From contig NZ_JABXWB010000001.1 of NCBI RefSeq assembly GCF_013375555.1, positions 2,170,001 to 2,234,000 of the forward strand: a stretch of DNA of 64,000 nt, given 5' to 3'. This document shows, one piece after another, positions 5,324 to 38,858 of this stretch; positions within the stretch are counted from its first letter, which is position 1; each line of letters starts with the position of its first letter. Position numbers and translations under genes: made by a program. The DNA comes from Sphingobium sp. EM0848 (GTDB lineage Bacteria > Pseudomonadota > Alphaproteobacteria > Sphingomonadales > Sphingomonadaceae). The notes beneath the pieces were generated by a model. The model ran no database searches, was not told where the DNA came from, and saw only the letters and a program-made list of their open reading frames with translations.

Positions 5324-5324
5324 C

Positions 5325-6620: not shown

Positions 6621-6745
6621 GAGACAGGGTCCTCATGGGCTTTGGTGTCGCGGAGCCCCGCTGCGAAAGGGGCTGTTGATGAGCGAGACTCCGCGACGAG
6701 GCAGCGTCCGGCCGTGGGGGAGCGGCGGGACCGGCGCTGCCTCAT
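6617..6745 (-). CDS. Small ORF between trbJ and trbL, at the trbK position
   Basis: 42 codons starting MRQRRSRRSPTAGR. The ATG is one base after the trbJ stop, in the same TGAGATG arrangement as trbE-trbJ and trbL-trbF, and its stop overlaps the trbL start. This is where many relatives carry trbK, the entry-exclusion lipoprotein. The product here is Arg/Ser-rich with no signal peptide, lipobox or membrane helix, so it does not look like TrbK. The DNA is dominated by two nested hairpins. It may be a coupling ORF or a degenerate trbK. Confidence 0.35.
   Translation of the reverse strand: MRQRRSRRSPTAGRCLVAESRSSTAPFAAGLRDTKAHEDPVS
6647..6743 (-). repeat. Tandem hairpins between trbJ and trbL
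   Basis: GTCGCGGAG (6647-6655) pairs with CTCCGCGAC (6689-6697), enclosing AGCCCC (6654-6659) with GGGGCT (6669-6674). Immediately after, GAGGCAGCG (6698-6706) pairs with CGCTGCCTC (6735-6743). The two structures fill almost the entire trbJ-trbL interval and could be RNA folds that tune trbL expression or protect upstream mRNA. Confidence 0.5.
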
Positions 6746-6746
6746 C

Positions 6747-7484
6747 TCAATTTCGGTTATAGGCAGAGCCGGACCCAAGAAATTGCCTGGTCGCGGCGCG
6801 CGCGTCAGCCTCGGCCTGGATCCGGCGCGCCTCTTCGACCGTCTGGGCACGGAAATGCGCGGCCATCATATTCTGGATCTGGAGCTGCTGCTTGGCAGCC
6901 AATGCCAACAACTGGTTGGTCGCCTGAGCTGCCTGCAACGCACCCTCGGCGCCCTGGCTCTTCCCTACCAGCGTTTCGATGGTGGCAGCATCCTGGGCAA
7001 CATTGCCGACGACCTGTGACTGGATGCGCATGGACTGCTGATAGGCATCCTTGGCAGCGTCGAAACGTTCCCGTGCCGATGCCAGACGTTCATCGCTCCG
7101 CATCGCCATATCATAATTGTTTGGAAAGAGGTGCTTGAACTGACTGTCGAGCGTGTCGATCCGAAAATCGATGCCTTGGGCGCTGGCCATGAGCTGGTCG
7201 ACGGCGCGCAGTTTTTCGGTCAGTTGCTGTAGCTCAGGAAAGCTGATGCGGCCGAGATTCTTCGCCATGTTGGTCAGCATTGACGCTTCATTCTGGAGCG
7301 ACTGGATCTGCTGGAGGGTCCGGGCAGCGGTCAGCAGGTTCTGTGCATAATTGGCGCTGTCAAATACGGGGATGGCATGGGCTGGCCGGCTCTGGAGGAT
7401 GAGACCCGTTGCCATGGCGCCGGCAGCACCCAGGGCAAGGGCAGAAGCGACAAGATATTTCTTTAGGGGAATGCGCGCTTTCAT
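6747..7484 (-). CDS. trbJ: TrbJ/VirB5-family protein
   Basis: 245 residues. The start MKARIPLKKYLVASALALGAAG at 7484 is one base after the trbE stop (TGAGATG). The signal peptide ends near AHA at about residue 37, then IPVFDSANYAQNLLTAARTLQQIQSL, the TrbJ signature. The rest is long amphipathic helices rich in Gln/Ala. TrbJ is the periplasmic, pilus-associated component. An open frame extends upstream into trbE but has no family similarity there. Confidence 0.93.
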   Translation of the reverse strand: MKARIPLKKYLVASALALGAAGAMATGLILQSRPAHAIPVFDSANYAQNLLTAARTLQQIQSLQNEASMLTNMAKNLGRISFPELQQLTEKLRAVDQLMASAQGIDFRIDTLDSQFKHLFPNNYDMAMRSDERLASARERFDAAKDAYQQSMRIQSQVVGNVAQDAATIETLVGKSQGAEGALQAAQATNQLLALAAKQQLQIQNMMAAHFRAQTVEEARRIQAEADARAATRQFLGSGSAYNRN

Positions 7485-7485
7485 C

Positions 7486-9936: not shown

Positions 9937-10190
9937 GTCCAATATCCCTTCTGCCGGAGATGGCGAAGCAGGACCGGCGCGAAATCGGGATCGCGACGGG
10001 TCGCTATGACCGCGATGCTGTGCCCGATCGCCCATGCCGCAATGCCGACCAGCCATTGTTGAAGGCCAAGGCCAATCGCAGCGGCCAGCGTCCCGTTGAC
10101 AATCGAAAGGCCACGAGGCGCCCCGCCCAGCAAGATGGGTGAGGCGAGGCTCGCATGGATGGGCACCTCGAAGCCTTCGATCGCGCTCAT
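9930..10190 (-). CDS. trbD: TrbD/VirB3-family membrane protein
   Basis: 86 residues starting MSAIEGFEVPIHASLASPILLGGAPRG, the typical TrbD opening, followed by one hydrophobic hairpin (about residues 28-62). VirB3-like proteins work with the VirB4 ATPase next door. The ATG at 10190 overlaps the trbC stop by four bases, and the TGA overlaps the trbE GTG start. Confidence 0.93.
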   Translation of the reverse strand: MSAIEGFEVPIHASLASPILLGGAPRGLSIVNGTLAAAIGLGLQQWLVGIAAWAIGHSIAVIATRRDPDFAPVLLRHLRQKGYWTC

Positions 10191-10534
10191 GCCACGAGCG
10201 CCCCGCCGCCGAAGCTGAAGAAGGAGAGGAAGAAGGACGATGCGGCAAAAGCGATGGAAAGGCCGAAGACGATCTGGATCAGGCGGCGAAAACCGCCCGA
10301 TGTTTCGCCAAAGGCGAGCGTGAGGCCGGTCGAGATGATGATGATCACGGCGACGATCTTCGCCACCGGTCCCTGCACCGATTCCAGCACCTGTTCGAGC
10401 GGCTGTTCCCAGGGCATGCCGGAGCCGGCGGCATGCGCAGCGGCCGAAGCCATGGCAAAGCTGACGGCAAGCATGATGGCAACGGACCCGGCGCCGCGAA
10501 AGGCAGCTGGCTGGGACAATGATATTTTGATCAT
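10187..10534 (-). CDS. trbC: TrbC/VirB2-family pilin
   Basis: 115 residues with a long signal segment ending near AHAAG (about residue 37). Two hydrophobic helices follow (KIVAVIIIISTGLTLAFG and IVFGLSIAFAASSFFLSFF), separated by the short loop ETSGGFRRL. This is the prepilin pattern of TrbC. It would be processed by the S26-family TraF peptidase encoded at 20592-21164, which in IncP systems also cyclises the pilin. Confidence 0.93.
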   Translation of the reverse strand: MIKISLSQPAAFRGAGSVAIMLAVSFAMASAAAHAAGSGMPWEQPLEQVLESVQGPVAKIVAVIIIISTGLTLAFGETSGGFRRLIQIVFGLSIAFAASSFFLSFFSFGGGALVA

Positions 10535-11553
10535 GGATGGTCTCCTGTGGGGAATGGGGGGACGAGGAGTTCGGTGAGCCGGTAGCCGCCCTGCGGGTCG
10601 AGACCATCGACGCGCGCGAGGCTGGTGACCCGCCGCGAGGCGCCTCGCCCGGAGAGAAAGACGATGAGGTCGATGGCCTCTGCGATGAGGGCGCGCGGAA
10701 CCGTCGCCACGGCCTCCTGCACCAGGCTTTCGATACGGCCGAGCGCAGCGGCTGACCCATTGGCGTGGACGGTCGCAATCCCGCCGGGGTGACCTGTATT
10801 CCAGGCCTTGAGCATGTCGAGGGCTTCGGGTCCCCTTACCTCACCGACGATGATCCGGTCGGGCCGCAAGCGGAGCGTGGAACGCACAAGGTCGGTCATG
10901 GTGACGATGCCCGCCCGCGTGCGCAGCGCCACGGTATCGACCGATGGGCTTTGCAATTCGCGCGTGTCTTCGATGAGGATCAGGCGTTCCTCGGTCGCCC
11001 CAATCTCGCCCAGCAGGGCATTGGCAAGCGTCGTCTTGCCCGAGCTGGTGCCGCCGGCGACAAGGATGTTCCACCGCTCATGCACCGCGCGACGTAGGAG
11101 TGCTGCGGCGGTATCGCTGATGATGCCATCGCTGACATAATCGTCCATGCTATAGGGACGAGATGCCGGCTTGCGGATCGCGAAGCAGGGGCCGACCGCA
11201 ACCGGCGGCAGGATCGCCTCAAAACGCTCGCCGGCCCTTCCTTCGGCCTGCGGCGGCAGTTCCGCTGATAATATGGGCGCGCCGGCATGGACCTCGGCAC
11301 GGACATGCGAGGCAACCAGGCGGATAATCCGTTCGACTTCGCTGGGCCCAAGGACAATATCGGTGTCGACGCGTCCCTCGCCCAGCAGATCGAGCCGCAG
11401 GGCACCATCGGGATTGACCATGATCTCGATCACGCGGGGATCATCGAGCGCCGCAGCGATGGCCGGCCCCATCGCGCTGTGCAGCATGGCCTTGCGCCGT
11501 CCGGCTGCCGTTTCATCGCGCACGGTCGTCGTGGATGTCTCATGCCTGCTCAC
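10531..11553 (-). CDS. trbB: TrbB/VirB11-family ATPase
   Basis: 340 residues. N-terminal domain with IEIMVNPDGALRLDLLGEG. Walker A GGTSSGKTT at about 167-175, LILIEDTRELQ (Walker B/Asp box region), then RPDRIIVGEVRGPEALDML and TGHPGGIATVHANGS, the conserved His box. A hexameric traffic ATPase at the channel base. Overlaps its neighbours by four bases on both sides. Confidence 0.96.
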   Translation of the reverse strand: MSRHETSTTTVRDETAAGRRKAMLHSAMGPAIAAALDDPRVIEIMVNPDGALRLDLLGEGRVDTDIVLGPSEVERIIRLVASHVRAEVHAGAPILSAELPPQAEGRAGERFEAILPPVAVGPCFAIRKPASRPYSMDDYVSDGIISDTAAALLRRAVHERWNILVAGGTSSGKTTLANALLGEIGATEERLILIEDTRELQSPSVDTVALRTRAGIVTMTDLVRSTLRLRPDRIIVGEVRGPEALDMLKAWNTGHPGGIATVHANGSAAALGRIESLVQEAVATVPRALIAEAIDLIVFLSGRGASRRVTSLARVDGLDPQGGYRLTELLVPPFPTGDHP

Positions 11554-11966
11554 CCCTCGCCTCCCTCGGCCGATGGGACCGCGATCATCCGCTTGCCGGT
11601 CGCAAGCTGGCGGCCAACCTGGCTGATGAATGCCTCGAAGCGCTGGCGGCCCTGGGCACGTCCAACCTCGTCATTGTCCCCGAGCGGGGGCGTCACCATG
11701 AGCTGATAGCGGATGAAGAGAGCGAGGCTCTCGACCAATATGTCAATGTCGCGGCGGGCAGCTGTCAGTTCCTTCGACAGTTCATTGAGGCGCATGCGCA
11801 GCGCCGCTTCCGCCTCGCTCGCGCCGCGATGACGCAGCCATGTCCGCAACGCATCATTGACCAATCGGCTCTTATTCCCTGCATAGCCGGTAGCCATGGC
11901 ATCGAGCGCATCGCCGATCTCGCGGTCGATGTAGAGATTCTGGCGGATCTTGGGTGCGCGCTTCAT
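11550..11966 (-). CDS. CopG-type ribbon-helix-helix regulator of the tra operon
   Basis: 138 residues. RQNLYIDREIGDALDAMATGYAGNKSRLVNDALRTWL forms the strand-helix-helix DNA-binding unit; a long helical region follows (SLALFIRYQLMVTPPLG, then RQRFEAFISQVGRQL). Genes of this kind commonly sit between traG and trbB. It overlaps both by four bases. A broken relative with the same N-terminal pattern lies at 43655. Likely a transcriptional regulator of transfer genes or a relaxosome accessory. Confidence 0.85.
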   Translation of the reverse strand: MKRAPKIRQNLYIDREIGDALDAMATGYAGNKSRLVNDALRTWLRHRGASEAEAALRMRLNELSKELTAARRDIDILVESLALFIRYQLMVTPPLGDNDEVGRAQGRQRFEAFISQVGRQLATGKRMIAVPSAEGGEG

Positions 11967-13987
11967 AGCCCCAGCACCTTTTCATGGGTTGACGCGACAT
12001 CGATGGCATGGCCACGGATGACCGGCGCCATGCGCTGCGCCTGCTCCATGGCGCGCTTGTCGGAAACGACGTCCTCATCCTCGACGATGGAGCGATCCAT
12101 CTCCGGCTCGGAATCCTGCCTATCCGGCTGAACCTCATTTTCAAGCGCCGGATGCCGATGCTGCTCGCGCCCACCTTCGTCGGCCGCCTGCCTAGTCTCG
12201 GCGGTGGCGGGGACCATTTTGCGTCCCGCATCGGCGGTCGCACCCCAATCATCCTTCCGGGACGGAGGAATGTCGGGATAGGCCTTGTCGCTTAGCAGCG
12301 GCGGCGCTCCGACACGATCTGCAAAATTGGGGTCGTTATAATAGCGCAGCTTCTTCGCGCGGATCGGCGCCATGCCGGCGACGAGGACCAGTTCCTCGTC
12401 GGCCGAAAGCTGCATGACTTCGCCGGGCGTCAGGAGCTGGCGTGCGGTCTCCTGACGGCTGACCATGACATGGGCGAGCCACGGGGCCAGACGGTGGCCG
12501 GCATAGTTGCGCATGGCGCGTTGTTCGGTCGCCGTTCCCAACGCGTCCGATATCCGCTTCGCGGTCCTCTCGTCATTGGTCGCAAAGGCGATACGGACAT
12601 GGCAATTGTCGAGAATGGCATTGTGCTCGCCATAGGCCTTCTCGATCTGGTTGAGGCTCTGCGCAATCAGGAAGGCGCGGATGCCGTAACCGGCCATGAA
12701 GGCAAGGCTGGTTTCGAAGAAATCCAGGCGGCCAAGCGCGGGGAACTCATCCAGCATCATGAGGAGTTGGTGCCGGCTTGTCGTCCCGGCCTGCTGATCG
12801 AGCCGTTCGGTAAGGCGCCGTCCGATCTGGTTCAGGATGAGCCGGATCAGCGGCTTGGTGCGGCTGATATCGGACGGCGGCACCACCAGATAGAGGGAAC
12901 AGGGCTCTGCACCCTCCATCAGATCGGCGATCCGCCAGTCGCAGCGCGACGTCACTTGCGCAAGGGTCGGGTCGCGATAGAGGCCAAGGAACGACATGGC
13001 GGTCGAGAGCACGCCCGAGCGTTCATTCTCGCTCTTGTTCAGCAATTCCCGGGCAGCGGATGCGACGACCGGATGGACCTGCGGATGCTCGTTCGTCCCC
13101 AGATGGTTGGCGGTCATCATGCGATGGAGCGTTGCCGCAAAGCTCTGCCGGGGATCGGACAAAAAGGTCGCCACATGGGCGAGCGTCTTTTCTTCCTCGG
13201 CATAGAGAATATGGAGAATGACGCCAACCAGCAGCGAATGGCTGGTCTTTTCCCAGTGATTCCGGGTGGTCAGCGCGCCCTCGGGGTCAACCAGGATATC
13301 GGCGATATTCTGGACGTCCCGGACCTCATCGGCGCCGCGGCGGACCTCAAGCAGGGGATTGTAGCGGGCCGAGCGCGCGTCCGTCGGATTGAACAGCAGG
13401 CAGTGCGAGAAGCGAGCGCGCCAGCCTGCCGTCAGGATCCAGTTTTCCCCCTTGATGTCGTGAATGACCGCGGACCCGGTCCAGGACAGCAGGGTCGGCA
13501 CGACCAGCCCGACACCCTTACCCGAGCGCGTGGGCGCAAAGGCCATGACATGCTCAGGCCCCTCATGACGCGAATAATGGTGGCCATGGCGGCCGAGCAT
13601 GACGCCGGCCGGCCGATACAGTCCCGCCCGCCGAACATCTCTGGAACTCGCCCAGCGCGCCGAGCCATAGGTCGTCACCTGCCGGGATTGGCGGGCGCGC
13701 CATAGCGAACCGAAGATCGCGGCGCCGCAGCCGACGAACCCGCTGGCCGCGGCCAGCGCGCCTGCCTTGTCGAAGACGATCGGCGCATAAGCGTCGAAAT
13801 GATACCACCAGGGAAAGAGCGACCAGGGGCGATAGACCGGAATGTCGCCGAGCATGAACCAGGCGGGCCCGAGCTGGGACTGATAGGCGAGCATGGCTGC
13901 CGCCCATTGGGTGGCTGCCCATAGGCCTGCAAGGACGATAGCCAGCACAATGAGAATCTGGCCGATCAGCAATTTGGTCGGGGTCAC
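11963..13987 (-). CDS. traG: TraG/VirD4 type IV coupling protein
   Basis: 674 residues. Two N-terminal membrane helices (about 5-36 and 75-95), then TYGSARWAS. Walker A APTRSGKGVG lies at 151-160, Walker B LLMMLDEFPALGRLD near 410, followed by IRAFLIAQSLNQIEKAYG. The last 100 residues are acidic and poorly conserved. It recruits the relaxase-DNA complex to the channel and hydrolyses ATP. First gene of the leftward transfer operon; the operon promoter should lie in 13988-14132. Confidence 0.96.
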   Translation of the reverse strand: MTPTKLLIGQILIVLAIVLAGLWAATQWAAAMLAYQSQLGPAWFMLGDIPVYRPWSLFPWWYHFDAYAPIVFDKAGALAAASGFVGCGAAIFGSLWRARQSRQVTTYGSARWASSRDVRRAGLYRPAGVMLGRHGHHYSRHEGPEHVMAFAPTRSGKGVGLVVPTLLSWTGSAVIHDIKGENWILTAGWRARFSHCLLFNPTDARSARYNPLLEVRRGADEVRDVQNIADILVDPEGALTTRNHWEKTSHSLLVGVILHILYAEEEKTLAHVATFLSDPRQSFAATLHRMMTANHLGTNEHPQVHPVVASAARELLNKSENERSGVLSTAMSFLGLYRDPTLAQVTSRCDWRIADLMEGAEPCSLYLVVPPSDISRTKPLIRLILNQIGRRLTERLDQQAGTTSRHQLLMMLDEFPALGRLDFFETSLAFMAGYGIRAFLIAQSLNQIEKAYGEHNAILDNCHVRIAFATNDERTAKRISDALGTATEQRAMRNYAGHRLAPWLAHVMVSRQETARQLLTPGEVMQLSADEELVLVAGMAPIRAKKLRYYNDPNFADRVGAPPLLSDKAYPDIPPSRKDDWGATADAGRKMVPATAETRQAADEGGREQHRHPALENEVQPDRQDSEPEMDRSIVEDEDVVSDKRAMEQAQRMAPVIRGHAIDVASTHEKVLGL

Positions 13988-15897: not shown

Positions 15898-17910
15898 TCA
15901 ACTGATCGTCGATCCGCCTCGGCCACGCCCGAAGGACCAGCTCACGCCATCTTCGCGCATCAGGCCGGACACGCTTTGCCCGACACGCCGCTCCAGCACC
16001 GGCCGCCAGGGCAAGAGCGCAAAATCCCGCGACCGTTCGAGCACCGCAAAGCGCCCGGAAATGAGGTCGACCCGGCGCCTGTATATACCCTCGAGCTTCT
16101 CGCCCTCGACGGTCTCAGCAAATGGCAAAGCCAGTTCGCGCGATAACTGGCCCGCCACGCGCAAAAGCTCACGTCGCCGCAGGACTGCGAGGAAATCCTT
16201 GCGATAGCGTATCTCGCCTTCGCCCTGCTCGGCCAGCCCTTCCTCCACCAGCCATTGCCGCCGACGCGCCAGCGCATCCGTCATATCTCGGCCGAACCCT
16301 GCATTGCGCAACTGGGGAGGATCACCGTCGACCAGCGTGCGATCGAGCCAGGTTGCCGCATGGGCGGTCGCCAGTTCTGCGACACCCACCGGCGAGAGCA
16401 TCGCGATCATAACGGGCTCGGCCTTGAGTTGTCGCTGCTCGAACGCCGCGACGCGCTCAAGATGGTCGGGGGCAATGCTCCAGCTCCCATCGCCCAAGCG
16501 CACGGCAATATCCCCGGCACGCGCAAGCGCTTCGAGCCTGCGGGCATGTGCTTCCACATAGTCCGAACGCGCATCGGGGTCATGGAGGCGATGCGCTTCG
16601 CCATCATAGCGCCCGCCATTGCCTGCCGCGACGGCAGCGATCGTCCGATCGACCTCGCGGACGGCCGCTTCCCTTGGCCTGATGGCAACGACCGGGCCGC
16701 CCGGCTGAGGACTATCGCCCTCCACCTTCGATGGCGGGAACCAATCACCGGTCTCGCCCTTGCCGATCGGCACATAATGGGTGCGTCCGTCGACACCGTC
16801 GACCAGCAGAAAATGTCGATCCTCCAGCTCGTCGGCAAGCCCACGCATGAGCAGGCGCCCGATGAGCGGCTGTGCACCCGGCGCGGCCGGATCATAGATC
16901 AGCTGGTCAGCGCTCGCCCGCTCCAGCCGCAGCCGCGAAAATTCGCGCTGCATCGTGCGGATGATGTCCCCCCTTTCCCCCATGGTGTGAAGGACGGTTT
17001 CAAGATCGGGATCAAGCCGATAACGGCCGGTGGGCAAGGGCTCGGCCAGCCCCATGCGCGCAAGATGCCCAAGTCTGCTCGCCTGCAGGTCATGTTCAAG
17101 GGGATCGCGGGCCACGGGTTTGACGACATGGTCATCGGCCATGCGGAGCAGCGAACGGTCGATCGAAGTGAACCTGTCCTGCGTGATTTCGGCGCGGCGC
17201 GAGACGAGAATTTCGCGATCGCTTCTGGGGCCAAGATCAAGTTCAACCAACTCAGCCGCACGCTCGCGCAATCCCCTGCCGATATAGTCGCGCGCGATGA
17301 CAAGATTGTCGCCATCCTCATCGACGCCCCGCAGCAGGATATGGCTGTGCGGATGGCCTGTATTATAGTGATCGACCGCGACCCATTCGAGTCGCGTGCC
17401 GAGATCTTCTTCCATCTGCCTCATGAGACGGCGAACAAGGGGTTCCAGATCCTCGTAGCGGTTCCCATCCTCCGGCGCGACGATGAACCGGAACTGATGC
17501 CTGTCTCTATTGCCCTTCTCCAGAAAGGCCTTGCCGTCGGCATGGTCTTCCCCGGGACCGTATAGCGTGCTGCGCTCACCCGCCCTATTGGTCCCGTCCC
17601 GCTGAAGATAACGCAGATGGGCGACCGCCTGGTTCCCACTCTTGCCACCCAGCCTGACGAGCCGCGCCTTGACGATGACGCGCCGGCGCCGGAAGAGCGT
17701 ATTGCTCCCCCCAACGCTAAGCAACCGGCCGATGCCGGCACCACGCCCATAGCGATGGCCGGAAAAACCGGCACGTCCCTTTCGTCCAGGCCCTGCGCCC
17801 CGCGCCAGATTGGCCGCCGCGATCACTCTTCCAGCATAGCGCCGCGCCTTGGGTCCAGGCGACGCACGCTGCCGTCCAAGCCGGGGCGTCAAATCCTCAT
17901 CATCGGCCAT
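15898..17910 (-). CDS. MOBP-type relaxase with DUF3363 domain
   Basis: 670 residues from the ATG at 17910 (MADDEDLTPRLGRQRAS), with AGGA eight bases upstream; the frame is open further but this is the family start. The N-terminal basic region is followed by KARLVRLGGKSGNQAVAHLRYLQRDG (relaxase core, about 85-110) and by the histidine triad in VAVDHYNTGHPHSHILLRG near 190-210. The C-terminal half is the DUF3363 region. It nicks oriT and leads the strand into the recipient. The family includes RlxS of ICEMlSymR7A. The oriT was not located. Confidence 0.93.
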   Translation of the reverse strand: MADDEDLTPRLGRQRASPGPKARRYAGRVIAAANLARGAGPGRKGRAGFSGHRYGRGAGIGRLLSVGGSNTLFRRRRVIVKARLVRLGGKSGNQAVAHLRYLQRDGTNRAGERSTLYGPGEDHADGKAFLEKGNRDRHQFRFIVAPEDGNRYEDLEPLVRRLMRQMEEDLGTRLEWVAVDHYNTGHPHSHILLRGVDEDGDNLVIARDYIGRGLRERAAELVELDLGPRSDREILVSRRAEITQDRFTSIDRSLLRMADDHVVKPVARDPLEHDLQASRLGHLARMGLAEPLPTGRYRLDPDLETVLHTMGERGDIIRTMQREFSRLRLERASADQLIYDPAAPGAQPLIGRLLMRGLADELEDRHFLLVDGVDGRTHYVPIGKGETGDWFPPSKVEGDSPQPGGPVVAIRPREAAVREVDRTIAAVAAGNGGRYDGEAHRLHDPDARSDYVEAHARRLEALARAGDIAVRLGDGSWSIAPDHLERVAAFEQRQLKAEPVMIAMLSPVGVAELATAHAATWLDRTLVDGDPPQLRNAGFGRDMTDALARRRQWLVEEGLAEQGEGEIRYRKDFLAVLRRRELLRVAGQLSRELALPFAETVEGEKLEGIYRRRVDLISGRFAVLERSRDFALLPWRPVLERRVGQSVSGLMREDGVSWSFGRGRGGSTIS

Positions 17911-18282
17911 CGCATGGTTCCTGCTCTGGCCCCTCTCGTCGCCAGAGTGCGACATCTCTTGCGCCATGGAAAGCGGTGCCGCCAGAAAGCGCGGAAATCC
18001 GTGGCTTTCAGCGAGAAATGGCACTGGACGCGCGCTCATCCCGAACCATGGCACCACGAAAAAAGATGTGCAGACAAAGGGTTAGACGGCATAAGGTGCC
18101 GGCTCTTTTATCTTGCCTTACGCGCCCTATCCGCCCCCGTTGCCCCCTCCCTCCTGCTCGCCGCCCCTCGCCCACCTCCTTTCCGCCGCGCAAAAGCCGC
18201 AGCCGCCTCGAAGGAAATTCCCCGCCGCTCGTCGTTTCGCGACGCCCCGCCGGTGCCACTGATGGCGATGTCCGGTTCTGAA

Positions 18283-19968: not shown

Positions 19969-20604
19969 TCAGAAGGTTCGACGCACGGCGAAAAGCGAAT
20001 CCGTTTTCGCTACCCCATCGCGTCCTGATTCTTCGGTGGCAAGTTCCGGTTTTTCCACGCGATAGAGGAACAGGGACGGAGGATTCTTCGCCGGCGGGCG
20101 TGTTTGCGGCGCAGCCCATTCCATCCCCAGCGATGCGGTAATGCCGGTCATATAGGCGCGCGTTTCCGGCGGCAGTGGCCGACCTTCTAAGAGAAATTGC
20201 CGATAGCGCGCCGGGCCGGCATGATAGGCTCCGAACAGTCCCGGATAGCCGAAACGCCGGTTCATGGCGGCCAGATAGGCCGTGCCCGCGACGATATTGT
20301 CATGAGGATCATGCGGGTTCTGTCCAAGACCATGAAGCCTGCGCATGTCCGCCCAGGTGCCGGGCATGAGTTGCATCAGGCCCATGGCCCCGGCAGCACT
20401 GGTGATCGGCCTGCCCCGCCAGACCGTGCGGCCGCCACTCTCCGCGCGCATGACCGCTTCGACCCATTGTCGGTCGATCCCGAAACGGGCCGATGCCGCG
20501 GCGATATCTTCGGCCCTAGCCGCCACGGGATCAGCGTGCAGTGGCGCAGCCAAAGGGATGAGCCCGATCGCTACTGCCAGCACCAAGTCCCTTAGCGTAG
20601 CCAT
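19969..20604 (-). CDS. Lytic transglycosylase, VirB1/TrbN type
   Basis: 211 residues with a signal peptide (MATLRDLVLAVAIGLIPLAAPLHA). The SLT domain follows: GIDRQWVEAVMRAESGGRT with the catalytic Glu at about residue 54, AGAMGLMQLMPGTWAD, and YLAAMNRRFGYPGLFGAYHAGPARY. The C-terminal 60 residues are proline-rich and variable. It opens peptidoglycan for pilus and channel assembly. It overlaps the end of traF by 13 bp and is in the excisionase-traF operon. Confidence 0.92.
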   Translation of the reverse strand: MATLRDLVLAVAIGLIPLAAPLHADPVAARAEDIAAASARFGIDRQWVEAVMRAESGGRTVWRGRPITSAAGAMGLMQLMPGTWADMRRLHGLGQNPHDPHDNIVAGTAYLAAMNRRFGYPGLFGAYHAGPARYRQFLLEGRPLPPETRAYMTGITASLGMEWAAPQTRPPAKNPPSLFLYRVEKPELATEESGRDGVAKTDSLFAVRRTF

Positions 20605-21164
20605 AGCGGGCTCGCTTTGCCGATGATGTCGCCCTCGCTGACCGGCCCGAAATAGCGGCCGTCAAAGGAGGCCGGAACCTTGTCCATGAGCAGGAAATAG
20701 CGGCCGGGAAGCAGGCCCTCGCAGCCCTCCCACCAGGGCAATGTCCGGCCCATGCTGTCGTGCGACAGACGTCGCGCGACCGGCTCACCGTCCAGCGTCA
20801 CCCGGTCGCCACGGGCGCAGATGATGTCGCCCGGCACGCCTACGACCCGCTTCATCAGCGGCACGTTCATGGGGAGATAATGCCGCCGCGCGGCGAGCAG
20901 GCGAGCTGGATAGGGCGCACGCGCCACCACCATGTCGCCGCGCGCGAGCCGCGCGCCGGGCGAGACCAGATAGAAGCCGGCGGGCGCGCTGGCGGTCGCG
21001 TTCCAGAGCAGGCGCGGCGGCGGCGGAAAGACGATGGTCGCTCCGAGCGCGAACCCGCCGAGGCCCAGCCAGACAAGCTGGCGGCGCAGATGGTGCCGCC
21101 GCGCACGAGCGGCACGCAATGCCTCGCCCCAGGCGAAAAGCGGCAGGTCGCGGGGCCGGTTCAT
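20592..21164 (-). CDS. traF: TraF-type S26 peptidase (pilin maturation)
   Basis: 190 residues from the ATG at 21164 (MNRPRDLPLFAWGEALRAAR), which overlaps the upstream stop. One membrane helix (about 31-48). The catalytic Ser is in NATASAPAGFYLVSPG (near 59) and the Lys in PLMKRVVGVPGD (near 105), then DSMGRTLPWWEGC and DGRYFGPV. TraF of IncP plasmids trims and cyclises the TrbC pilin; the trbC gene at 10187 is the expected substrate. The frame is open upstream to 21548 but that part has no family similarity. Confidence 0.93.
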   Translation of the reverse strand: MNRPRDLPLFAWGEALRAARARRHHLRRQLVWLGLGGFALGATIVFPPPPRLLWNATASAPAGFYLVSPGARLARGDMVVARAPYPARLLAARRHYLPMNVPLMKRVVGVPGDIICARGDRVTLDGEPVARRLSHDSMGRTLPWWEGCEGLLPGRYFLLMDKVPASFDGRYFGPVSEGDIIGKASPLWLR

Positions 21165-21418
21165 GCGCCTTCTCCCGACTTGCGGGCGGCCGACCAGGCA
21201 TCGAGATCGTCCACATGATAGCGCCAGTTCCCACCATGCATGCGGCAGAGCGGACCGCGTCCCTGATGGCGCAGGCGCTTTAAGGTGTTGGCGGCGATAC
21301 CCAGATGAAAGGCCGCCTGCTTGGCGGTCAGATAAGGGCAGGTTTCGCGCGCAATCCGCGCGCGCTCGGCCAGTTCCCGCGAAACGGCGCCGCGCCGCTC
21401 CTTCGCATTGTCGTCCAT
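21161..21418 (-). CDS. MerR/excisionase-like HTH protein, candidate RdfS
   Basis: 85 residues from the ATG at 21418, with AAGGA 8-9 bases upstream. CPYLTAKQAAFHLGIAANTLKRLRHQGRGPLCRMHGGNWRYHVDDLDAW is a winged HTH of the excisionase/MerR type. It heads the operon with traF and the transglycosylase. In ICEMlSymR7A, as I recall it, rdfS (the recombination directionality factor) stands immediately before traF and is activated by FseA. The same order here, plus a split fseA-like gene at 28.3-29.1 kb, supports that role by analogy. It could instead be a plain regulator. Confidence 0.75.
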   Translation of the reverse strand: MDDNAKERRGAVSRELAERARIARETCPYLTAKQAAFHLGIAANTLKRLRHQGRGPLCRMHGGNWRYHVDDLDAWSAARKSGEGA

Positions 21419-21460
21419 GGCTGTTTTCCTTGGATGCCCGGCCCCGGAAGGGGGCATTTG

Positions 21461-21500
21461 GGCCAGATCGGCTCATCCTGGGCCGATCCAGTCCATCCGG
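21461..21500. promoter_or_regulatory. CAGATCGGCTC / GGGCCGATC inverted motif upstream of the excisionase-like gene
   Basis: CCAGATCGGCTCATCC is followed by GGGCCGATCCAGTCC, so the GATCGGC core occurs in both orientations within 25 bp, 45-80 bp before the start at 21418. CAGATCGGCTCAT is identical to part of the block upstream of traG (14061). A shared operator is possible. Confidence 0.35.
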
Positions 21501-21596
21501 GCACGGTCGGAAAATGGGGGGCACGCTTTTCGACCCCCCAGCCATCATCGACCGGTCCCGGCCGCGTGGGAAGCGGCCGGGACCGAGGGCAGGCCG

Positions 21597-28333: not shown

Positions 28334-28927
28334 CTATTTCGATCGCATGAGGAGCCGATATCCTCCTTCCGCCATGGCCCGGGCGGATTTCACCATCCGC
28401 CTGACCCTCTGCCGCAGATGGTCCGACCGCCCCTCCCAACCGGTTTCGATCGCTCGCGCCCCGAAGAGCACCTCGCCTATTTCGCGATGACTGGCCCCTG
28501 ACGTACGGGCATCATGGACACGCAACAGCGCAAGGCCGCGCCCGACCGCTGGGTCGATGGGATAGAGCAGCGCGCGAAAGCGGCCGGTCCTCACTAAATC
28601 GAGGAAACGCTCCAGGGTTCGCAAGCGCCGGGCGGCGGTTCTCGCGCCCCACAACTCATAACGTAGCAATATCTCGCTCTCGGATCGGACAAGGCTGCCC
28701 TCCATGATGTCGAGCCGTAAATGCCGGCGGCCATCGGTCAGCGCCGCATATTCGCGGCCTGCGGCGTCAGTGGCCACGCGCAGCCATGGCGCCAGTCGCG
28801 CAACATCGATGCCGTCTTGCGACGGAACGGCGCAGGGCACAATGAAGACGGGCAAAGCCGCAGGATCGAAATCGGCGCGCCAGATGATCCGCGCCTCCGG
28901 GGCCGGGAGGTCGGGATGCTCAGCGAA
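28334..28927 (-). CDS. DUF2285 half of an FseA-like excision activator
   Basis: C-terminal part of a split gene. Reading in the +1 frame from 28927 gives FAEHPDLPAPEARIIWRADF, then PVFIVPCAVPSQDGIDVARLAPW and the DUF2285 domain (TSGASHREIGEVLFGARAIETGWEGRSDHLRQRVRRMVKSARAM). No ATG or GTG lies in this frame before the conserved part; the only candidate is a TTG at 28855 with no ribosome-binding site and sited inside conserved sequence. It is therefore probably made only by frameshifting from the gene at 29120, giving about 261 residues. The ICEMlSymR7A genes msi172/msi171 (fseA) are the known case. Confidence 0.8.
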   Translation of the reverse strand, partial: FAEHPDLPAPEARIIWRADFDPAALPVFIVPCAVPSQDGIDVARLAPWLRVATDAAGREYAALTDGRRHLRLDIMEGSLVRSESEILLRYELWGARTAARRLRTLERFLDLVRTGRFRALLYPIDPAVGRGLALLRVHDARTSGASHREIGEVLFGARAIETGWEGRSDHLRQRVRRMVKSARAMAEGGYRLLMRSK

Positions 28928-29120
28928 AGTGCAGCCCCCAATGTGCTGGATCGGCCGTGCCGCGGGTCATCCTGCTCGCCTGCGCATACCAGGCGACATA
29001 ATCCTGATCGCGGCGCAACCATTCCCACATCAGTCCTGCCCGGTCGATCCCGTGCAAGGCGGCATAGGGTCCAGGATCCCGCCAATTTTCAGGCGCAGGA
29101 TCGATCGAACCCCTTGTCAC
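28920..29120 (-). CDS. DUF6499-like N-terminal half of an FseA-like activator
   Basis: 66 codons from a GTG at 29120. PENWRDPGPYAALHGIDRAGLMWEWLRRDQDYVAWY is the short regulator-like domain (DUF6499) usually fused to DUF2285. The frame stops at a TGA (28920-28922) right after HWGLHFR; the fused relatives continue at this point. One base removed from the TTT at 28926-28928 joins both halves perfectly. Divergent from the luxR gene, with about 240 bp between starts. Confidence 0.75.
   Translation of the reverse strand: MTRGSIDPAPENWRDPGPYAALHGIDRAGLMWEWLRRDQDYVAWYAQASRMTRGTADPAHWGLHFR
28923..28931 (-). other. Candidate +1 ribosomal frameshift site
   Basis: The zero frame reads CAC-UUU-CGC-UGA. 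If the Phe tRNA in the P site slips one base forward, it moves from UUU to UUC, a better match for its GAA anticodon, and reading continues GCU-GAG-CAU into the DUF2285 frame. The stop codon comes two codons after the UUU. The site lies exactly at the junction expected from fused homologues. A plain frameshift mutation or sequencing error cannot be excluded. Confidence 0.55.
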
Positions 29121-29358
29121 CGCCCGCCTTCAGCCCGAGCGGTTAAGCTCCAGGCCATCCGTTTGCCGGGTTTTTCCAACGCTTTGCTGCACGGCAGCAG
29201 ATAAAACCCCACCCGGGAGAAATTTTGATATGACGGTTTCATGACAAATCTGTCGACCCGCGGCGTGAGGCCCTGCTGGTCGGCAACAGACATGGAGAAA
29301 GGACGGCTGCGGGGCGCACGGCAGCTTGAGATGCCGCCAGCGGCCGGAAGGCGTGCGC

Positions 29359-30126
29359 ATGAGCATGCTGCAAAATGCGATGCATCTCCTCGAATGCATC
29401 AACAGGGTCAAAACGCATGATGACATGGCGTCGGTCATGCGCCTGATCGCGGAACAGCTGGGTTTCCAATATTTCGCGCTGACGCAACATGTCGATGTGA
29501 TCGCGGCCGGTGCGAGCGCGATCCACATTCACAATTATCCAGCCCGCTGGGCCGATTTCTATGCGGAAAACGCGCTGGGCGTGACCGATCCCGTCCACCG
29601 GGCCTCCCATTTGACCAGCCTGGGCTTCCGCTGGTCGAAGATATCCGCGCTCATTCCGCTGACGTCCGGTGATCGCCGGCAACTCGTGCGCGGGCGCCAG
29701 GCCGGTATAGGGGACGGCTTTACCATCCCCTCCAATGTCGGAGGAGAGGCGCCGGGCTCCTGCACCTTCGCCAATTCGGCCGATCGCCCGCTCCGCGAGG
29801 ACGGACTTGTGCTGGCACAGCTGCTCGGCAATTATGCGTTCGACGCGGCACGGCAGCTCTGGGCGGTGCCGAAACGGCAAGGGGCTGCCACGCTCATCAC
29901 CGACCGCCAGCGCGACTGCGTACAATGGGCGGCGCGGGGCAAGAGCGACTGGGAGACCAGCCAGATCCTGGGCATCAGCAAGGAAACCGTGACGAGCCAT
30001 ATCAAGGAAGCCTGTGCACGCTACCAGGTCAACAAGCGGATATTGCTCGTCGGCCGGACGCTGGGTGACGGAACCCTGACGATCAGCGACATCGGCGGCT
30101 GGCGCCATCCCCATTTCTGGGAATAG
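29359..30126 (+). CDS. luxR: LuxR-family quorum-sensing regulator
   Basis: 255 residues from the ATG at 29359, with GGAAGG seven bases upstream. The autoinducer-binding domain holds the conserved cluster NYPARWADFYAENALGVTDPVH (Trp, Tyr and Asp-Pro positions all present). The C-terminal HTH is LITDRQRDCVQWAARGKSDWETSQILGISKETVTSHIKEACARY. It is the acyl-homoserine-lactone receptor for the synthase gene that follows 56 bp later. By analogy with TraR of ICEMlSymR7A it would activate the synthase and the excision activator. Confidence 0.92.
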   Translation: MSMLQNAMHLLECINRVKTHDDMASVMRLIAEQLGFQYFALTQHVDVIAAGASAIHIHNYPARWADFYAENALGVTDPVHRASHLTSLGFRWSKISALIPLTSGDRRQLVRGRQAGIGDGFTIPSNVGGEAPGSCTFANSADRPLREDGLVLAQLLGNYAFDAARQLWAVPKRQGAATLITDRQRDCVQWAARGKSDWETSQILGISKETVTSHIKEACARYQVNKRILLVGRTLGDGTLTISDIGGWRHPHFWE

Positions 30127-30149: not shown

Positions 30150-30173
30150 CCCTTGATCGACCACGACCAAGGG
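30150..30173 (+). promoter_or_regulatory. Dyad overlapping the luxI ribosome-binding site
   Basis: CCCTTGATCG (30150-30159) pairs with CGACCAAGGG (30164-30173) with one mismatch (a possible G-U in RNA) and a 4-base loop. The last GGG is the start of the GGGAG ribosome-binding site of luxI (ATG at 30183), so the folded RNA would hide it. It could also be a DNA site for the LuxR protein: the dyad is 18-24 bp long, as lux/tra boxes are. Confidence 0.5.
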
Positions 30174-30182
30174 AGTTTGCCC

Positions 30183-30782
30183 ATGTTGCACATAGTGAAA
30201 GAACCGTTCCGGCCGGTGCCGGACGCCGTGCTGCGCGCCATGTTCGCGGCGCGCAAATCCGTCTTCGTCGATCTGCTGAAATGGCAGATTCCGGTGCTCG
30301 ACGGCCGGTTCGAGGTCGACCAGTTCGACGATGAACATGCGCGCTATGTCATCCTGTCTGAGCCCGACGGCACCCATCTGGCCTCGGCCAGGCTTCTGCC
30401 GACCATGCGCCCCCATATTCTCGACAGCTTCTACGCCTCCCTGTGCGAAGCCTCGCCGCCGCGTGGCGAGGATGTCTTCGAGATCACCCGCTTCTGCCTC
30501 GATCGGAACCTGCGCGCACCCGAGCGGCGGGTGGTCCGCAACCGCCTCGTGACCGCGATCGCGGACCATGCGCTTGCAAACCGCATCAGCCGCTATGTCG
30601 CGATCGCCGAGATGAACTGGTTCCAGCAGATCCTTGCCTTTGGTTGGCAATGCAGGCCGCTGGGCGTGCCACGATGGCATGACGGTTCGCTCCTCGTCGC
30701 GCTCGAGATCGAGATTGGCGCGGACACGCTCGACCGGCTCGCTGAAGCCGGCATCTATGACCAGGCGCCGATGGCGGCCTGA
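30183..30782 (+). CDS. luxI: LuxI-family acyl-homoserine lactone synthase
   Basis: 199 residues from the ATG at 30183. Key family positions are visible: Arg in AARKSVFVDLLKW (about 24), Trp 34, DQFD (about 45-48), ASARLLPTMRPH with its Arg, and FEITRFCLDRN with Glu and Arg. The C-terminal half is the GNAT-like acyl-binding part (MNWFQQILAFGWQCRPLG). It makes an acyl-homoserine lactone from SAM and acyl-ACP; the acyl chain cannot be told from sequence. Followed after 16 bp by a dioxygenase gene, likely one operon. Confidence 0.95.
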   Translation: MLHIVKEPFRPVPDAVLRAMFAARKSVFVDLLKWQIPVLDGRFEVDQFDDEHARYVILSEPDGTHLASARLLPTMRPHILDSFYASLCEASPPRGEDVFEITRFCLDRNLRAPERRVVRNRLVTAIADHALANRISRYVAIAEMNWFQQILAFGWQCRPLGVPRWHDGSLLVALEIEIGADTLDRLAEAGIYDQAPMAA

Positions 30783-30798
30783 GGCAGGAGGAGCGATC

Positions 30799-31665
30799 AT
30801 GAACTCACTTCTGTCCACCGGCGCTTCGTCCCTGCTTGGGCAATTGTTCGCGCAGGGGTGGTGCATCATTCCGGACGCCTTGCCCGAAAGCATCATCGCG
30901 GCGCTGGACGCCGATCTCGCACCAGTCTTTGCGGCGACACCTTTCTGCCAGGGACCATTTTATGGCGAAACGACCAAGCGCTTCGGGCGGCTACTGACCC
31001 GGTCGCCCCATGCCGAAGCACTTGTCCGGCATCCGCTCATCACCCGGATCGCCACGCAGATCCTTGACCGCTGGTGCGACTGCATCCAGCTCAATGTGGG
31101 ACAGGCCATCGCCATCCACCCGAACGCGCCGGCGCAAGCACCGCACCGGGACCAGGATATGTGGCGCGCGCCAAAAGGGGAAATCGAATATCTGGTGAAT
31201 ATCATCTGGCCGCTCACCCCCTTCACTGCCCACAATGGCGCGACGCTGGTCTGGCCACGCAGCCATGGCGCCCAGGCGCTGGAGGCAGAGCCATCCGAGC
31301 CGCCGGTCCCTGCCATTATGGACCCTGGGTCTGCCCTTCTTCTGCTGGGCTCGACCCTGCATGGCGCCGGCGCGAACCGGACGGCGGCGGTGAGGCGCGG
31401 GATCGTCACCGGCTACTCACTGGGATGGCTCAAACCCTATGAGAATCCCTGGCTCGCCTATCCGCCCGATGTCGCCCGCCGATTTTCACCCGAACTGGCG
31501 GCGCTTGCCGGCTATCGCCAGCACCGCCCCAATCTCGGCAATTTCGAGGGGCAGTGCCCATCGGTCCTGCTCACCGGTGAACCGGACCGCGCACTTGCTG
31601 CGATCGACGCGTTGCGGCCCGATCAGGAAGCGATGGTGTCGGCCTTTGCGGCACAGCAGAGGTGA
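30799..31665 (+). CDS. PhyH-like Fe(II)/2-oxoglutarate dioxygenase in the quorum-sensing operon
   Basis: 288 residues from the ATG at 30799 (GGAGGAG upstream). LFAQGWCIIPDALPESIIAAL is the PhyH opening. HRDQDMW near 115 supplies the HxD iron ligands, HGAGANRTAAVRRGIVTGY near 195 the second His and the 2-oxoglutarate-binding Arg. PhyH enzymes hydroxylate small molecules, often on acyl chains. Its place right after the synthase suggests it acts on the signal, or is a quorum-controlled enzyme; the substrate is unknown. Confidence 0.85.
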   Translation: MNSLLSTGASSLLGQLFAQGWCIIPDALPESIIAALDADLAPVFAATPFCQGPFYGETTKRFGRLLTRSPHAEALVRHPLITRIATQILDRWCDCIQLNVGQAIAIHPNAPAQAPHRDQDMWRAPKGEIEYLVNIIWPLTPFTAHNGATLVWPRSHGAQALEAEPSEPPVPAIMDPGSALLLLGSTLHGAGANRTAAVRRGIVTGYSLGWLKPYENPWLAYPPDVARRFSPELAALAGYRQHRPNLGNFEGQCPSVLLTGEPDRALAAIDALRPDQEAMVSAFAAQQR

Positions 31666-34169: not shown

Positions 34170-34289
34170 ATGGAACGTGACAATGACGTGATCGAACTCG
34201 GCGCGATCAGCGTGGAAACCAAGGGTCCCGGCGGCCTTACGGGCGATGTCGGCCTTAATGAAATCCAGGCCGGTCTTTCCGACGACTGA
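34170..34289 (+). CDS. Lasso peptide precursor, sphingonodin-like
   Basis: 39 codons with AGGAG eight bases before the ATG. The leader is MERDNDVIELGAISVETK, with the conserved Thr at the second-last leader position. The 21-residue core begins GPGGLTGDVGL and ends QAGLSDD. Gly1 and Asp8 give the standard 8-residue macrolactam ring; the tail is 13 residues. From memory the core closely matches sphingonodin I (GPGGITGD...GLSDD), differing mainly at position 5 and in the middle of the tail, so this would be a new variant. Two processing genes follow directly. Confidence 0.92.
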   Translation: MERDNDVIELGAISVETKGPGGLTGDVGLNEIQAGLSDD

Positions 34290-34291
34290 AG

Positions 34292-34325: not shown

Positions 34326-34343
34326 TCCTGTTCGAGACAGAGC

Positions 34344-35000
34344 ATGACCGGCTATTCACTTCGCGATGGTCTGAGCTTCTGCCGGACAGAGGGGCGGACC
34401 ATTTTCCTCGACCTAAATGCAGATCGCTATTTCGGTCTGCGACCCGCCTTGGAACAGGCTTTCTGTTCCCTGATCGACGCCGACCGCATCGATGACCGGC
34501 AGTGCGACACATTGCTGGAAGCTGGCATCATCATCCGGTCGCCAGCCAGCAGCAGGCCTGTCCCCTGCCCGCTCGCACATCCGGCCGAGGCCAGGCTCCC
34601 GCTGGAGAAAGCCTGCCCATCGCCTGCCCTTGTCGCCAGCGCATTGACCCGCCGGCTCTGGTGGCGCGCGAGACTGAGACAGTTGCCCTTTTCCCGCAAC
34701 ATCCGCGTGATCGAACAACGAAAGCACAGCGTGACACAGCGGGGCGTCCCGATCGACAGGCTTGCCCGTCTCGACCAAGCTTATCGTCGGGCCGCCATGA
34801 TCCTTTCCGCCCGCGACCAGTGCCTCCCCACCGCGCTGTCGCTGGCGTCATGGCTCATCGCGCTCAGCATCCGGCCGAATCTTGTCCTGGGCGTCAAACT
34901 CAACCCTTTCCAGGCCCATAGCTGGATCGAGGTCGACGGCATGATCATGGCCGACGATCCCGATCAGGTCCGCCCGTTCAGCCCGATCAGGATCATCTGA
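34344..35000 (+). CDS. Lasso leader peptidase with RRE domain (B protein)
   Basis: 218 residues. The first 75 (SFCRTEGRTIFLDLNADRYFGLRPALEQAFCSLI) are a PqqD-like recognition element that binds the leader. The C-terminal part is the transglutaminase-like Cys protease: Cys160 in DQCLPTALSLASWLI, His192 in FQAHSWIEVDG, and the Asp in the strand that follows. It removes the leader in step with the cyclase. Its stop shares one base with the cyclase ATG (TGATG). Confidence 0.93.
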   Translation: MTGYSLRDGLSFCRTEGRTIFLDLNADRYFGLRPALEQAFCSLIDADRIDDRQCDTLLEAGIIIRSPASSRPVPCPLAHPAEARLPLEKACPSPALVASALTRRLWWRARLRQLPFSRNIRVIEQRKHSVTQRGVPIDRLARLDQAYRRAAMILSARDQCLPTALSLASWLIALSIRPNLVLGVKLNPFQAHSWIEVDGMIMADDPDQVRPFSPIRII

Positions 35001-36745
35001 TGAAACGCTTTGTCGCCATATTAGCGCCGACGCCGGAACGCAGCCCCATCGCGCCCGCTATCCGCGGCGCACTCTCCCGTACCGAGGGGCTGTCGGTTAT
35101 GATCGACCGCGACGACATGCTCGTTGCAGGCAGTGACGGACATATCCGGCAACTGGGCGATGATATCGGTATCATCATCGGGCCGATCTTTGCGACCGGC
35201 AAAAGCGATCCGGTCACCCTGCCATCCGATTTCGCGCCCGGCGGCGAGCCCGTGGAACTCGATCGTTTCAGCCAGGACCATTGGGGCAATTTCGTTACGA
35301 TCCTGCGCGATGGCGCGGCAGGCTTCCATGTCCTGCGCTCAGCCTTCGGCCGCCTGCCCTGCTTCCATGCGATGCAGGACGATCAGCTAATCTGCGCGTC
35401 CGACACATCCCTGCTGACGCTTGCGGGATGGACGTCCCGCAGGATCGATTGGTCCGGCGTCCTGCGCCGCCTGGCGCTCAAGGATATCCCCTCGCCCTCC
35501 ACCTGCCTTGCCGGCGTTCAGGAACTGCGCGGAGGCTCGCGTCTCCACCTCACCGCCAAAGGGCTGAGCGTCGCGCAGACATGGAACCCATGGGATCGGG
35601 CAGGCAGGCGCCACTGGATCGATGACCGGGACGAGGCCCCGCGCATGGTCCGCCGCGCGGTGTCGACCGCGACCCGCGCCAGCATCATGGGGGCGGATCG
35701 CGCCCTGCTCATGCTGTCGGGCGGAATAGATTCCTCCGTGCTGGCCGCTGCGCTCGGCACCCATGGCTGCCCCTTTGCCTGTTTCAATCTCGCCAGCCTC
35801 GGCACCGTCGGCGATGAACGGCGTTATGCGCAAATGGTCGCATCCCATATGGGCGCCTCGATCATGGAATCGCAGTGGGACGTCGGCATGGTCGACATTA
35901 CCCGTTCCCATGCCATCAATCACCCCAACCCCATTGCCCGCAGTTTCATGCAGGGCACGTCCCGCCTGCTGGGCGAGGCGGTCGAAACCAGCGGCGCCGA
36001 TCTCACGATCGATGGCGGCGGCGGGGACAATGTCTTCTTCTCCCTGCGGTCCATAGCGCCGGTCACCGACGCTTTTCTGCGCGGGGGGAGCCTCAGCGAA
36101 GGCTGGTCGACCACCCTGTCGATTGCGGCCATGGCGGACGTGAGCGCGTTCACCGTGCTCGGCCGGGCAGCAGCACGCGCCTTCCGCCGGTCACCCGCCT
36201 ATCGTTGGCGGCCGATGACCCAATATCTGTCTCCAGAAGTGATGGATGACGAGGCTCTGGTGCCTCGACATCCATGGCTGGAACCACCGTGCGGCGGCGA
36301 AACAGGAACGGCCGCCCATATCGCGCTCATTACCGCCGCCCAGGGCTGGGCCGAGGGAAATGATATCAGAAGTCCGGTGCGTCATGTGACGCCATTGGCC
36401 TCCCAACCCGTCGTCGAAGCATGCCTGCGGATTCCGAGTTGGTGGTGGTTCCGACACGGTCAGAACCGGATCGTCGCGCGCGATGCCTTTCGCGACCGCC
36501 TACCGGCGCCGGTCGTCAATCGCAGGACAAAGGGCACGCCCGACAGCTATATCGCGGAAATCTTCACCGCGAACCGCCCCGTCATCCGCGCCATGCTGCT
36601 GGACGGGCATCTGCGTCGAGCCGGGCTGCTCGACATTCCCTTGCTAGAACGTGCCCTGGACAGCGAGGGACCTGTCCAGGGCACACACTATCACCGCATC
36701 ATGCATCTCGCGGACGTCGAGGCATGGATCGCGGGACAGGTCTAG
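35000..36745 (+). CDS. Lasso cyclase, asparagine synthetase-like (C protein)
   Basis: 581 residues. The N-terminal glutaminase-like domain lacks the usual Cys2 nucleophile (it starts MKRFVAIL), as in lasso cyclases. The ATP-pyrophosphatase loop is LSGGIDSSVL at about 239-248; TIDGGGGDNVFF near 335 and FRHGQNRIVARDAFRDRLP near 485 complete the synthetase domain. It adenylates the Asp8 side chain and joins it to Gly1. Its TAG interlocks with the stop of the convergent isopeptidase gene (CTAG). Confidence 0.94.
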   Translation: MKRFVAILAPTPERSPIAPAIRGALSRTEGLSVMIDRDDMLVAGSDGHIRQLGDDIGIIIGPIFATGKSDPVTLPSDFAPGGEPVELDRFSQDHWGNFVTILRDGAAGFHVLRSAFGRLPCFHAMQDDQLICASDTSLLTLAGWTSRRIDWSGVLRRLALKDIPSPSTCLAGVQELRGGSRLHLTAKGLSVAQTWNPWDRAGRRHWIDDRDEAPRMVRRAVSTATRASIMGADRALLMLSGGIDSSVLAAALGTHGCPFACFNLASLGTVGDERRYAQMVASHMGASIMESQWDVGMVDITRSHAINHPNPIARSFMQGTSRLLGEAVETSGADLTIDGGGGDNVFFSLRSIAPVTDAFLRGGSLSEGWSTTLSIAAMADVSAFTVLGRAAARAFRRSPAYRWRPMTQYLSPEVMDDEALVPRHPWLEPPCGGETGTAAHIALITAAQGWAEGNDIRSPVRHVTPLASQPVVEACLRIPSWWWFRHGQNRIVARDAFRDRLPAPVVNRRTKGTPDSYIAEIFTANRPVIRAMLLDGHLRRAGLLDIPLLERALDSEGPVQGTHYHRIMHLADVEAWIAGQV

Positions 36746-38853: not shown

Positions 38854-38858
38854 GGCGC

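Follow-up and report, generated by a model that had tools for sequence, protein, structure and literature searches.

The window (the whole 64,000-nucleotide stretch of Sphingobium sp. EM0848 DNA that was analysed) carries on its minus strand two overlapping reading frames, frame 0 and frame +1, that correspond to the two halves of an FseA-like protein (Table 1). The N half starts with GTG at 29120, encodes 66 aa and has the 3' end TGG GGG CTG CAC TTT CGC TGA, giving a peptide that closes in AHWGLHFR. It scored 58.1 bits against the DUF6499 family (Pfam cut-off 23.8), and the AWEFLRRN-like motif of this domain is present in the variant form MWEWLRRD. The C half lies in the +1 frame, has its stop codon at 28334-28336 and scored 66.7 bits against DUF2285 (cut-off 26.4). 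The split into these halves had been proposed in an earlier note made from the letters alone, as had a TGA two codons after CAC-UUU and a continuation in the +1 frame; both are borne out, with UUU at 28926-28928, CGC at 28923-28925 and UGA at 28920-28922. Skipping one base joins the halves, also as proposed there, so that HWGLHF is followed by AEHPDLPAPEARIIW within a single 261-aa protein that matches both PF20109 and PF10074, in the FseA-family order of DUF6499 then DUF2285. The predicted junction peptide of the frameshifted FseA is HWGLHFAEHPDLPAPEAR. The sequence TGGGGGNTGNNNTTTC occurs once in the window and in none of 100 shuffles. All 48 named relatives found with the FseA protein are from Sphingomonas, Sphingobium, Novosphingobium or related genera, the nearest being from Sphingobium chlorophenolicum (69% identity).

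An element of about 77.4 kb encloses the window. In the 184 kb searched, its borders are marked by a 34-bp exact repeat that contains the last 33 bases of tRNA-Val(GAC) and stands at contig positions 2166633 and 2244081; the left copy adjoins a tyrosine integrase (L153:17164-18201). Integrase, tRNA direct-repeat borders, relaxase, T4CP and T4SS are thus all present, as in the core of an ICE, and the rdfS-like gene is found just 5' of traF, before the relaxase. This anatomy, together with the named relatives, supports the sphingomonad mobile element that the earlier note had suspected. A second tyrosine integrase (46072-47214, plus strand) lies inside the ICE and adjoins tRNA-Gly(TCC) (47311-47384, plus strand); no repeat copy of the end of this tRNA was detected within the 184 kb examined.

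Table 1. Positions of the features in the window
Feature	Position	Strand	Evidence
trb-type type IV secretion genes (TrbI, CagX, VirB8, TrbL, CagE/TrbE, T2SSE matches)	2443..11553	-	
TraG coupling protein	11963..13987	-	PF02534
Relaxase (DUF3363 + MobA/VirD2-like)	15898..18057	-	PF11843, PF03432
Lytic transglycosylase (SLT)	19969..20604	-	PF01464
traF-like signal peptidase S26 (ORF, domain in C-terminal half)	20592..21548	-	PF10502
rdfS-like excisionase (HTH_17), directly upstream of traF	21161..21418	-	PF12728, E 2.8e-11
FseA-box-like inverted repeat GGTCG-N21-CGACC	21505..21535	-	87-117 nt upstream of rdfS
FseA C half (DUF2285), +1 frame, from predicted slip TTC to stop	28334..28927	-	PF10074, E 3.3e-18 on the half alone
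Predicted +1 frameshift site: TGGGGG (SD-like) + 6 nt + TTT C, as TGG GGG CTG CAC TTT C	28925..28940	-	TTT in 154/154 aligned split loci
FseA N half (DUF6499), frame 0	28920..29120	-	PF20109, E 1.1e-15 on the half alone
Candidate structured luxR 5' leader RNA, between fseA and luxR	29226..29360	+	Covariance model R1, 101 bits
luxR-type regulator (autoinducer-binding + GerE), divergent from fseA	29359..30126	+	PF03472, PF00196
luxI-type AHL synthase	30153..30782	+	PF00765
Phytanoyl-CoA dioxygenase-like (phyH), start approximate	30634..31665	+	PF05721
Lasso-peptide precursor ORF, 39 aa	34170..34289	+	
Lasso B (Transglut_core3) and C (Asn_synthase)	34344..36745	+	PF13471, PF00733

Upstream of the rdfS-like gene, the inverted repeat GGTCG-N20/21-CGACC was found in 17 of 24 sequences, the window included, and was missing in 7. 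The window and L208 have a gap that exceeds that of the other 15 by one base. Taken together, the remaining spacer lengths tried, from 8 to 35, yielded a single match in the same 24 upstream regions. Taken alone, the repeat is not beyond chance in the 64-kb window. The FseA box is described in PMC10359603 as a pair of inverted hexamers separated by 15 or 16 bp; by this description the repeat fits and is a candidate FseA box.

PF10074 occurs at two places in the host genome at E ≤ 0.001, each with PF20109, and no stand-alone DUF2285 (QseM-like antiactivator) was found there with this profile at this threshold, which a diverged QseM could escape. As a positive control, an 83-aa stand-alone DUF2285 of Mesorhizobium scored above the PF10074 cut-off. 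QseM is possibly dispensable, in that not every FseA element need carry an antiactivator.

Conservation of the junction among relatives

Among the matches listed, PF10074 was present in 106 of the 298 genomes of the host family. The 149 family loci, again among the matches listed (2 from the host genome, 30 delivered by the search itself and 117 retrieved from the listed matches; at least one listed match, overlapping another, was left out), were sorted with profiles built from clear cases: 111 were split by +1, 29 were in one frame, 8 were without the N half and 1 was split by +2. The named relatives were split by +1 in 47 of 48 cases. The two +2-split loci are L105 and L205, the latter being a named relative.

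The junction carried TTT in all 107 of the +1-split family loci that aligned there (the next base was C in 105 and T in 2) and in 47/47 of the split named relatives (C next in 46). The earlier note had said that breaks at random places would make the split an error or an ordinary mutation. With both sets pooled, TTT stands at the same codon in 154 of the 158 +1-split loci, followed by C in 151, across 102 clusters. The 154 loci include an overlap of both genome sets, 147 being distinct within 120 bases of the slip. The other four were left uncounted at the junction for not aligning to the end of the N-profile; TTT is absent at the junction in L067 and L117, L057 is truncated and L135 is badly aligned. 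In the rest of these genes 32% of Phe codons are TTT, so the need of the protein does not explain TTT, and never TTC, in 154 of 154 aligned loci.

The Gly codon upstream is GGG in 123/153 split loci, compared with 19% elsewhere in the genes, and GGC in 26/153; counted by cluster representatives, GGG is found in 78 of 101 (p 1.4e-36). GGG is also the Gly codon in 11/24 in-frame homologues, so part of the excess may have another cause. At the junction, the fused homologues, with which the earlier note had advised comparison, have TTC in 9 of the 11 aligned (TTT in 1, TAT in 1). TGG and TTT stand at a constant distance across the split loci. The same junction, as TGG GGG CTC CTG TTT CGC, is present on a Mesorhizobium plasmid in which DUF6499 and DUF2285 genes are annotated and which was compared in place of R7A's own msi172/msi171 DNA. 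A conserved +1 PRF site with UGGGGG at the WGL motif is thus found here, and with TTT kept as it is and GGG in excess, the predicted +1 frameshift site of FseA is under nucleotide-level selection beyond what the protein needs, in mostly sphingomonad loci (n = 154 aligned). A quick tree was made from the C halves of 146 split and 28 fused genes (174 in all). At least nine changes between split and fused were counted on it, five of them forced by well-supported branches, indicating that split genes are scattered across the tree.

The kept parts of the site are UGG-GG(G)-6 nt-UUU-C, and CAC and UGA are variable. Conservation of CAC-UUU-CGC-UGA as a whole, which the earlier note had put up for checking, therefore holds for UUU-C only. 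Among the 107 family loci, the codon before UUU was CGA in 34, TCC in 18, AGC in 8, GAA in 8, CAC in 7 and others in the rest. UGA as in the window was seen in 4/48 named relatives (L167, L179, L190, L208) and 0/106 other aligned family loci; relative L080 has CAC TTT CGC GGA at the same place. All 154 split loci have a real frame-0 stop within the fetched DNA; the 107 family loci have it 1 to 88 codons past UUU, and in the named relatives it lies as far as 392 codons away. UGA as a part of the signal is ruled out by this range, and with the stop so variable in position, the shift cannot generally depend on a stop codon in the A site. In L193, L194, L198 and L206, frame 0 is open for 181 to 392 codons beyond the slip before a real stop, and unshifted ribosomes would there yield a long second product.

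Alternative readings of the split gene

The C half might be made as a second, separate protein, started by translational coupling or at an internal start. A stand-alone DUF2285 protein is known in the Mesorhizobium antiactivator QseM (PMC10359603), and in 96/154 split loci the +1 frame extends back, with no stop between, to an ATG or GTG upstream of the slip. The window is not among these loci: its C frame is closed by a stop 13 codons upstream of the slip and contains neither ATG nor GTG from there up to its conserved part (past the slip, TTG first appears after 24 codons and GTG after 29), just as the earlier note had stated for the C half. Across the 154 loci the first C-frame ATG or GTG lies 1 to 158 codons past the slip, with an SD-like 4-mer before it in only 15, and a conserved internal start was rejected on these varying positions and the rarity of the 4-mer. 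Bases from the slip onward also vary with the periodicity of the +1 frame, variability being highest at its third positions (0.53 vs 0.30 and 0.24). Before the slip the contrast between codon phases is weak (0.52 vs 0.45 and 0.46), perhaps because this ungapped comparison, made on 63 loci picked by the first nine bases of the slip site, ignores indels there. We consider two separate proteins improbable.

Transcriptional slippage at the G or T run, which would leave a minority of mRNAs one base short, could make use of the GGGGG run 5' of the site, but this run is not strict, having GGC in the 26 loci counted above, and the invariant TTT is only 3 bases long. The near-invariant element moreover takes in the base after TTT, as tRNA re-pairing predicts, and slippage of this kind is very improbable. 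A sequencing error or a recent inactivating frameshift in the window copy would account for frames that lie one base apart and for a UGA straight after the slip that is rare among relatives, but it is scarcely credible, and an error is rejected, when the same +1 break with TTT recurs at the same codon in 154 aligned loci and 102 clusters, and when PF20109 and PF10074 are intact in their halves.

The luxR leader and its surroundings

The spacer between fseA and luxR is conserved among the relatives in the stretch just 5' of luxR. This stretch forms a candidate leader RNA with two TGAGA-loop hairpins and a GAAAGGGCG block, and it runs into the luxR start codon; the ATG of luxR in the window was placed by the leader model. 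A regular expression for TGAGA upstream of luxR had found 22 of 49 and missed the window, so it was judged too strict and was replaced by a covariance model built from 22 sequences, the window's own included. The leader loci are those of the window, L161-L203, L205-L208, L211 and L214-L220. At E ≤ 1e-8 the model matched 49 of 53 sources once each (the window, G057 and 47 of the 48 named loci), the sources without a match being L204 and three stretches that flank the window. Of the 48 matches checked, that of G057 being left out, 45 had a same-strand luxR match no more than 80 bases away; the distance is 101 to 111 in L203 and L186, and L190 is cut by the contig end. All 46 full-length matches run into a start codon (41 ATG, 4 TTG, 1 GTG).

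Covariation is the evidence for this RNA, since the single-sequence fold of the window leader is unremarkable (z -0.54). In an alignment of 53 distinct leaders, fitted to a structure that was derived from an earlier MAFFT alignment, 90% of the cells pair and 19 of the 23 pairs have changed on both sides. Its covariation score of 0.418 compares with 0.193 +/- 0.010 for shuffles (0/500 as high) and at most 0.106 when slid. In the earlier MAFFT alignment, 12/23 pairs were double-sided and the score was 0.383. G-U cells outnumbered A-C cells in both (46 vs 13 in the first alignment, 103 vs 35 in the second), which favours the luxR strand. No match for the leader was found in Rfam 15, nor did the titles and abstract openings of a limited literature collection reveal a structured RNA at luxR in Sphingomonadales.

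The leader was detected in 19 of 298 family genomes at E ≤ 0.01 (11 at E < 1e-10, the window's included) and in 7 of 246 genomes of the order, all of the same family; in 240 genomes of the class, it gave one weak match outside the family with no luxR beside it. Strong matches are thus confined to the bacterial family of the host, among the genomes searched. The weak matches in G675, G217, G266 and G153 (L230, L232, L233, L223) were taken as chance, because a luxR match is absent nearby; another weak match, in G432 (L231), adjoins luxR. In genome G090 the leader (L220) precedes luxR-luxI, without PF10074 among the matches listed.

Near the 48 named fseA loci, which were picked by FseA similarity and of which some are on short contigs, tblastn matches were obtained for LuxR at 47, LuxI at 44, PhyH at 42, lasso B at 36 and lasso C at 36. 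The LuxR match is divergent from fseA and adjoins it at the named loci except L204, with L190 cut by the contig end. No palindrome shared among relatives, as a lux box would be, turned up between fseA and luxR when 15 loci were scanned. The placing of phyH next to luxI was noted for Novosphingobium in PMC3704786.

In the window, a lasso cluster (34170-42532) has a precursor, the PF13471 and PF00733 genes that we take to be lasso B and C, and then an S9 peptidase, a TonB receptor and FecR, and is linked to luxR-luxI-phyH and fseA. An IS66-type transposase (32360-33988, plus strand) lies between a GntR-type gene and this cluster. By a loose pattern, a precursor-like ORF was found upstream of lasso B in 38/38 sources (36 named, the window and G057), most with the leader end LGxxSxET-x-G. 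Within the titles and abstract openings of the same limited collection, no report was found of lasso-luxI or lasso-quorum-ICE links in sphingomonads, and none of such a link for FseA ICEs in Sphingomonas.

The surroundings of fseA add a structured RNA before luxR and a linked lasso-peptide cluster. It is a tentative idea, for which we would give somewhat less than even odds, that the control region of fseA also houses a cis-regulatory RNA of a new class, and that the leader may gate translation of LuxR and thereby frameshifted FseA and RdfS, with the lasso cluster under the same switch. If so, the leader would act upstream of the frameshift, in the order leader, LuxR, FseA, RdfS.

Proposed mechanism and known systems

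We read 28334-29120 (minus strand) as fseA, carried by an ICE of about 77 kb within a sphingomonad-like chromosome, with a +1 slip at UUU-C that would yield one DUF6499-DUF2285 protein (probability about 0.87). The DNA holds the two halves, the slip signature, the ICE borders, the rdfS-traF-relaxase order, the box-like repeat and the linkage to luxR-luxI. From these we infer the following course, from the occurrence and rate of the shift to DNA binding by FseA and its quorum control. At UUU-C a minority of ribosomes would move on by one extra base as the P-site tRNA-Phe re-pairs from UUU to UUC, and the SD-like UGGGGG six bases 5' of UUU probably causes the ribosome to pause. Ribosomes that do not slip would end two codons on at UGA and give the 66-aa N half only. 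The most likely target of the joined FseA is the inverted repeat 5' of rdfS-traF, where its binding would turn on excision and transfer, with the adjoining LuxR-LuxI pair presumably supplying the quorum signal. The frameshift would in this way limit excision of the sphingomonad element. The domain matches and the invariant TTT at the junction support what the earlier note had made of the gene, namely an FseA-like product with a +1 shift from UUU to UUC.

The +1 frameshifting of FseA, by which transferable elements limit the protein that sets off their excision, is a known phenomenon and is not new here. According to PMC10359603, about 61% of 4709 FseA homologues are split at a conserved +1 site, FseA-like genes with this site occur in alpha-, beta- and gammaproteobacteria, and UGGGGG was noted at it, so the window fseA joins an already known kind. 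With FseA of R7A (msi172/msi171 on ICEMlSymR7A of Mesorhizobium), a case reviewed in PMC5009743, it shares the DUF6499 and DUF2285 halves, the +1 shift (predicted here) and, beside the site, the UGGGGG that codes for part of the WGL motif (PMC10359603). Shared as well are the rdfS-traF-relaxase order with an inverted repeat 5' of rdfS, and LuxR-type quorum control, which is suggested here by the luxR-luxI genes (PMC10359603, PMC11963761); in R7A, too, rdfS is directly upstream of traF (PMC11963761). Unlike in R7A, the window fseA is divergent from luxR-luxI and has the motif WEWLRRD, not AWEFLRRN, and the host genome gave no QseM-like protein in the search above.

The joined FseA also matches RovC (PDB 6xz5, E 6.9e-5), to which the Pfam description assigns a type VI secretion role; what is shared is the DUF2285/RovC DNA-binding domain, and the match is limited to query residues 195-254. 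An FseA paralogue with PF20109 and PF10074 in the host genome itself (L001:1492-2289, minus strand, on contig 1 near 2.894 Mb) differs from the window fseA in being one open frame, with TTC at the junction and no shift. Its neighbours, named by eye, are a small DNA-binding-like ORF and a replication-initiator-like ORF.

In prfB (RF2), an SD-like sequence lies upstream of a +1 slip in the P site, with a stop codon in the A site. The predicted FseA slip, in contrast, needs no adjacent stop, frame 0 remaining open for as many as 392 codons in relatives, and it lies on UUU-C with a spacing of 6 nt from the SD-like sequence to the codon. With UGGGG(G), a fixed 6-nt gap and UUU-C kept, and the stop and the codon before UUU free, P-site re-pairing without a stop becomes testable.
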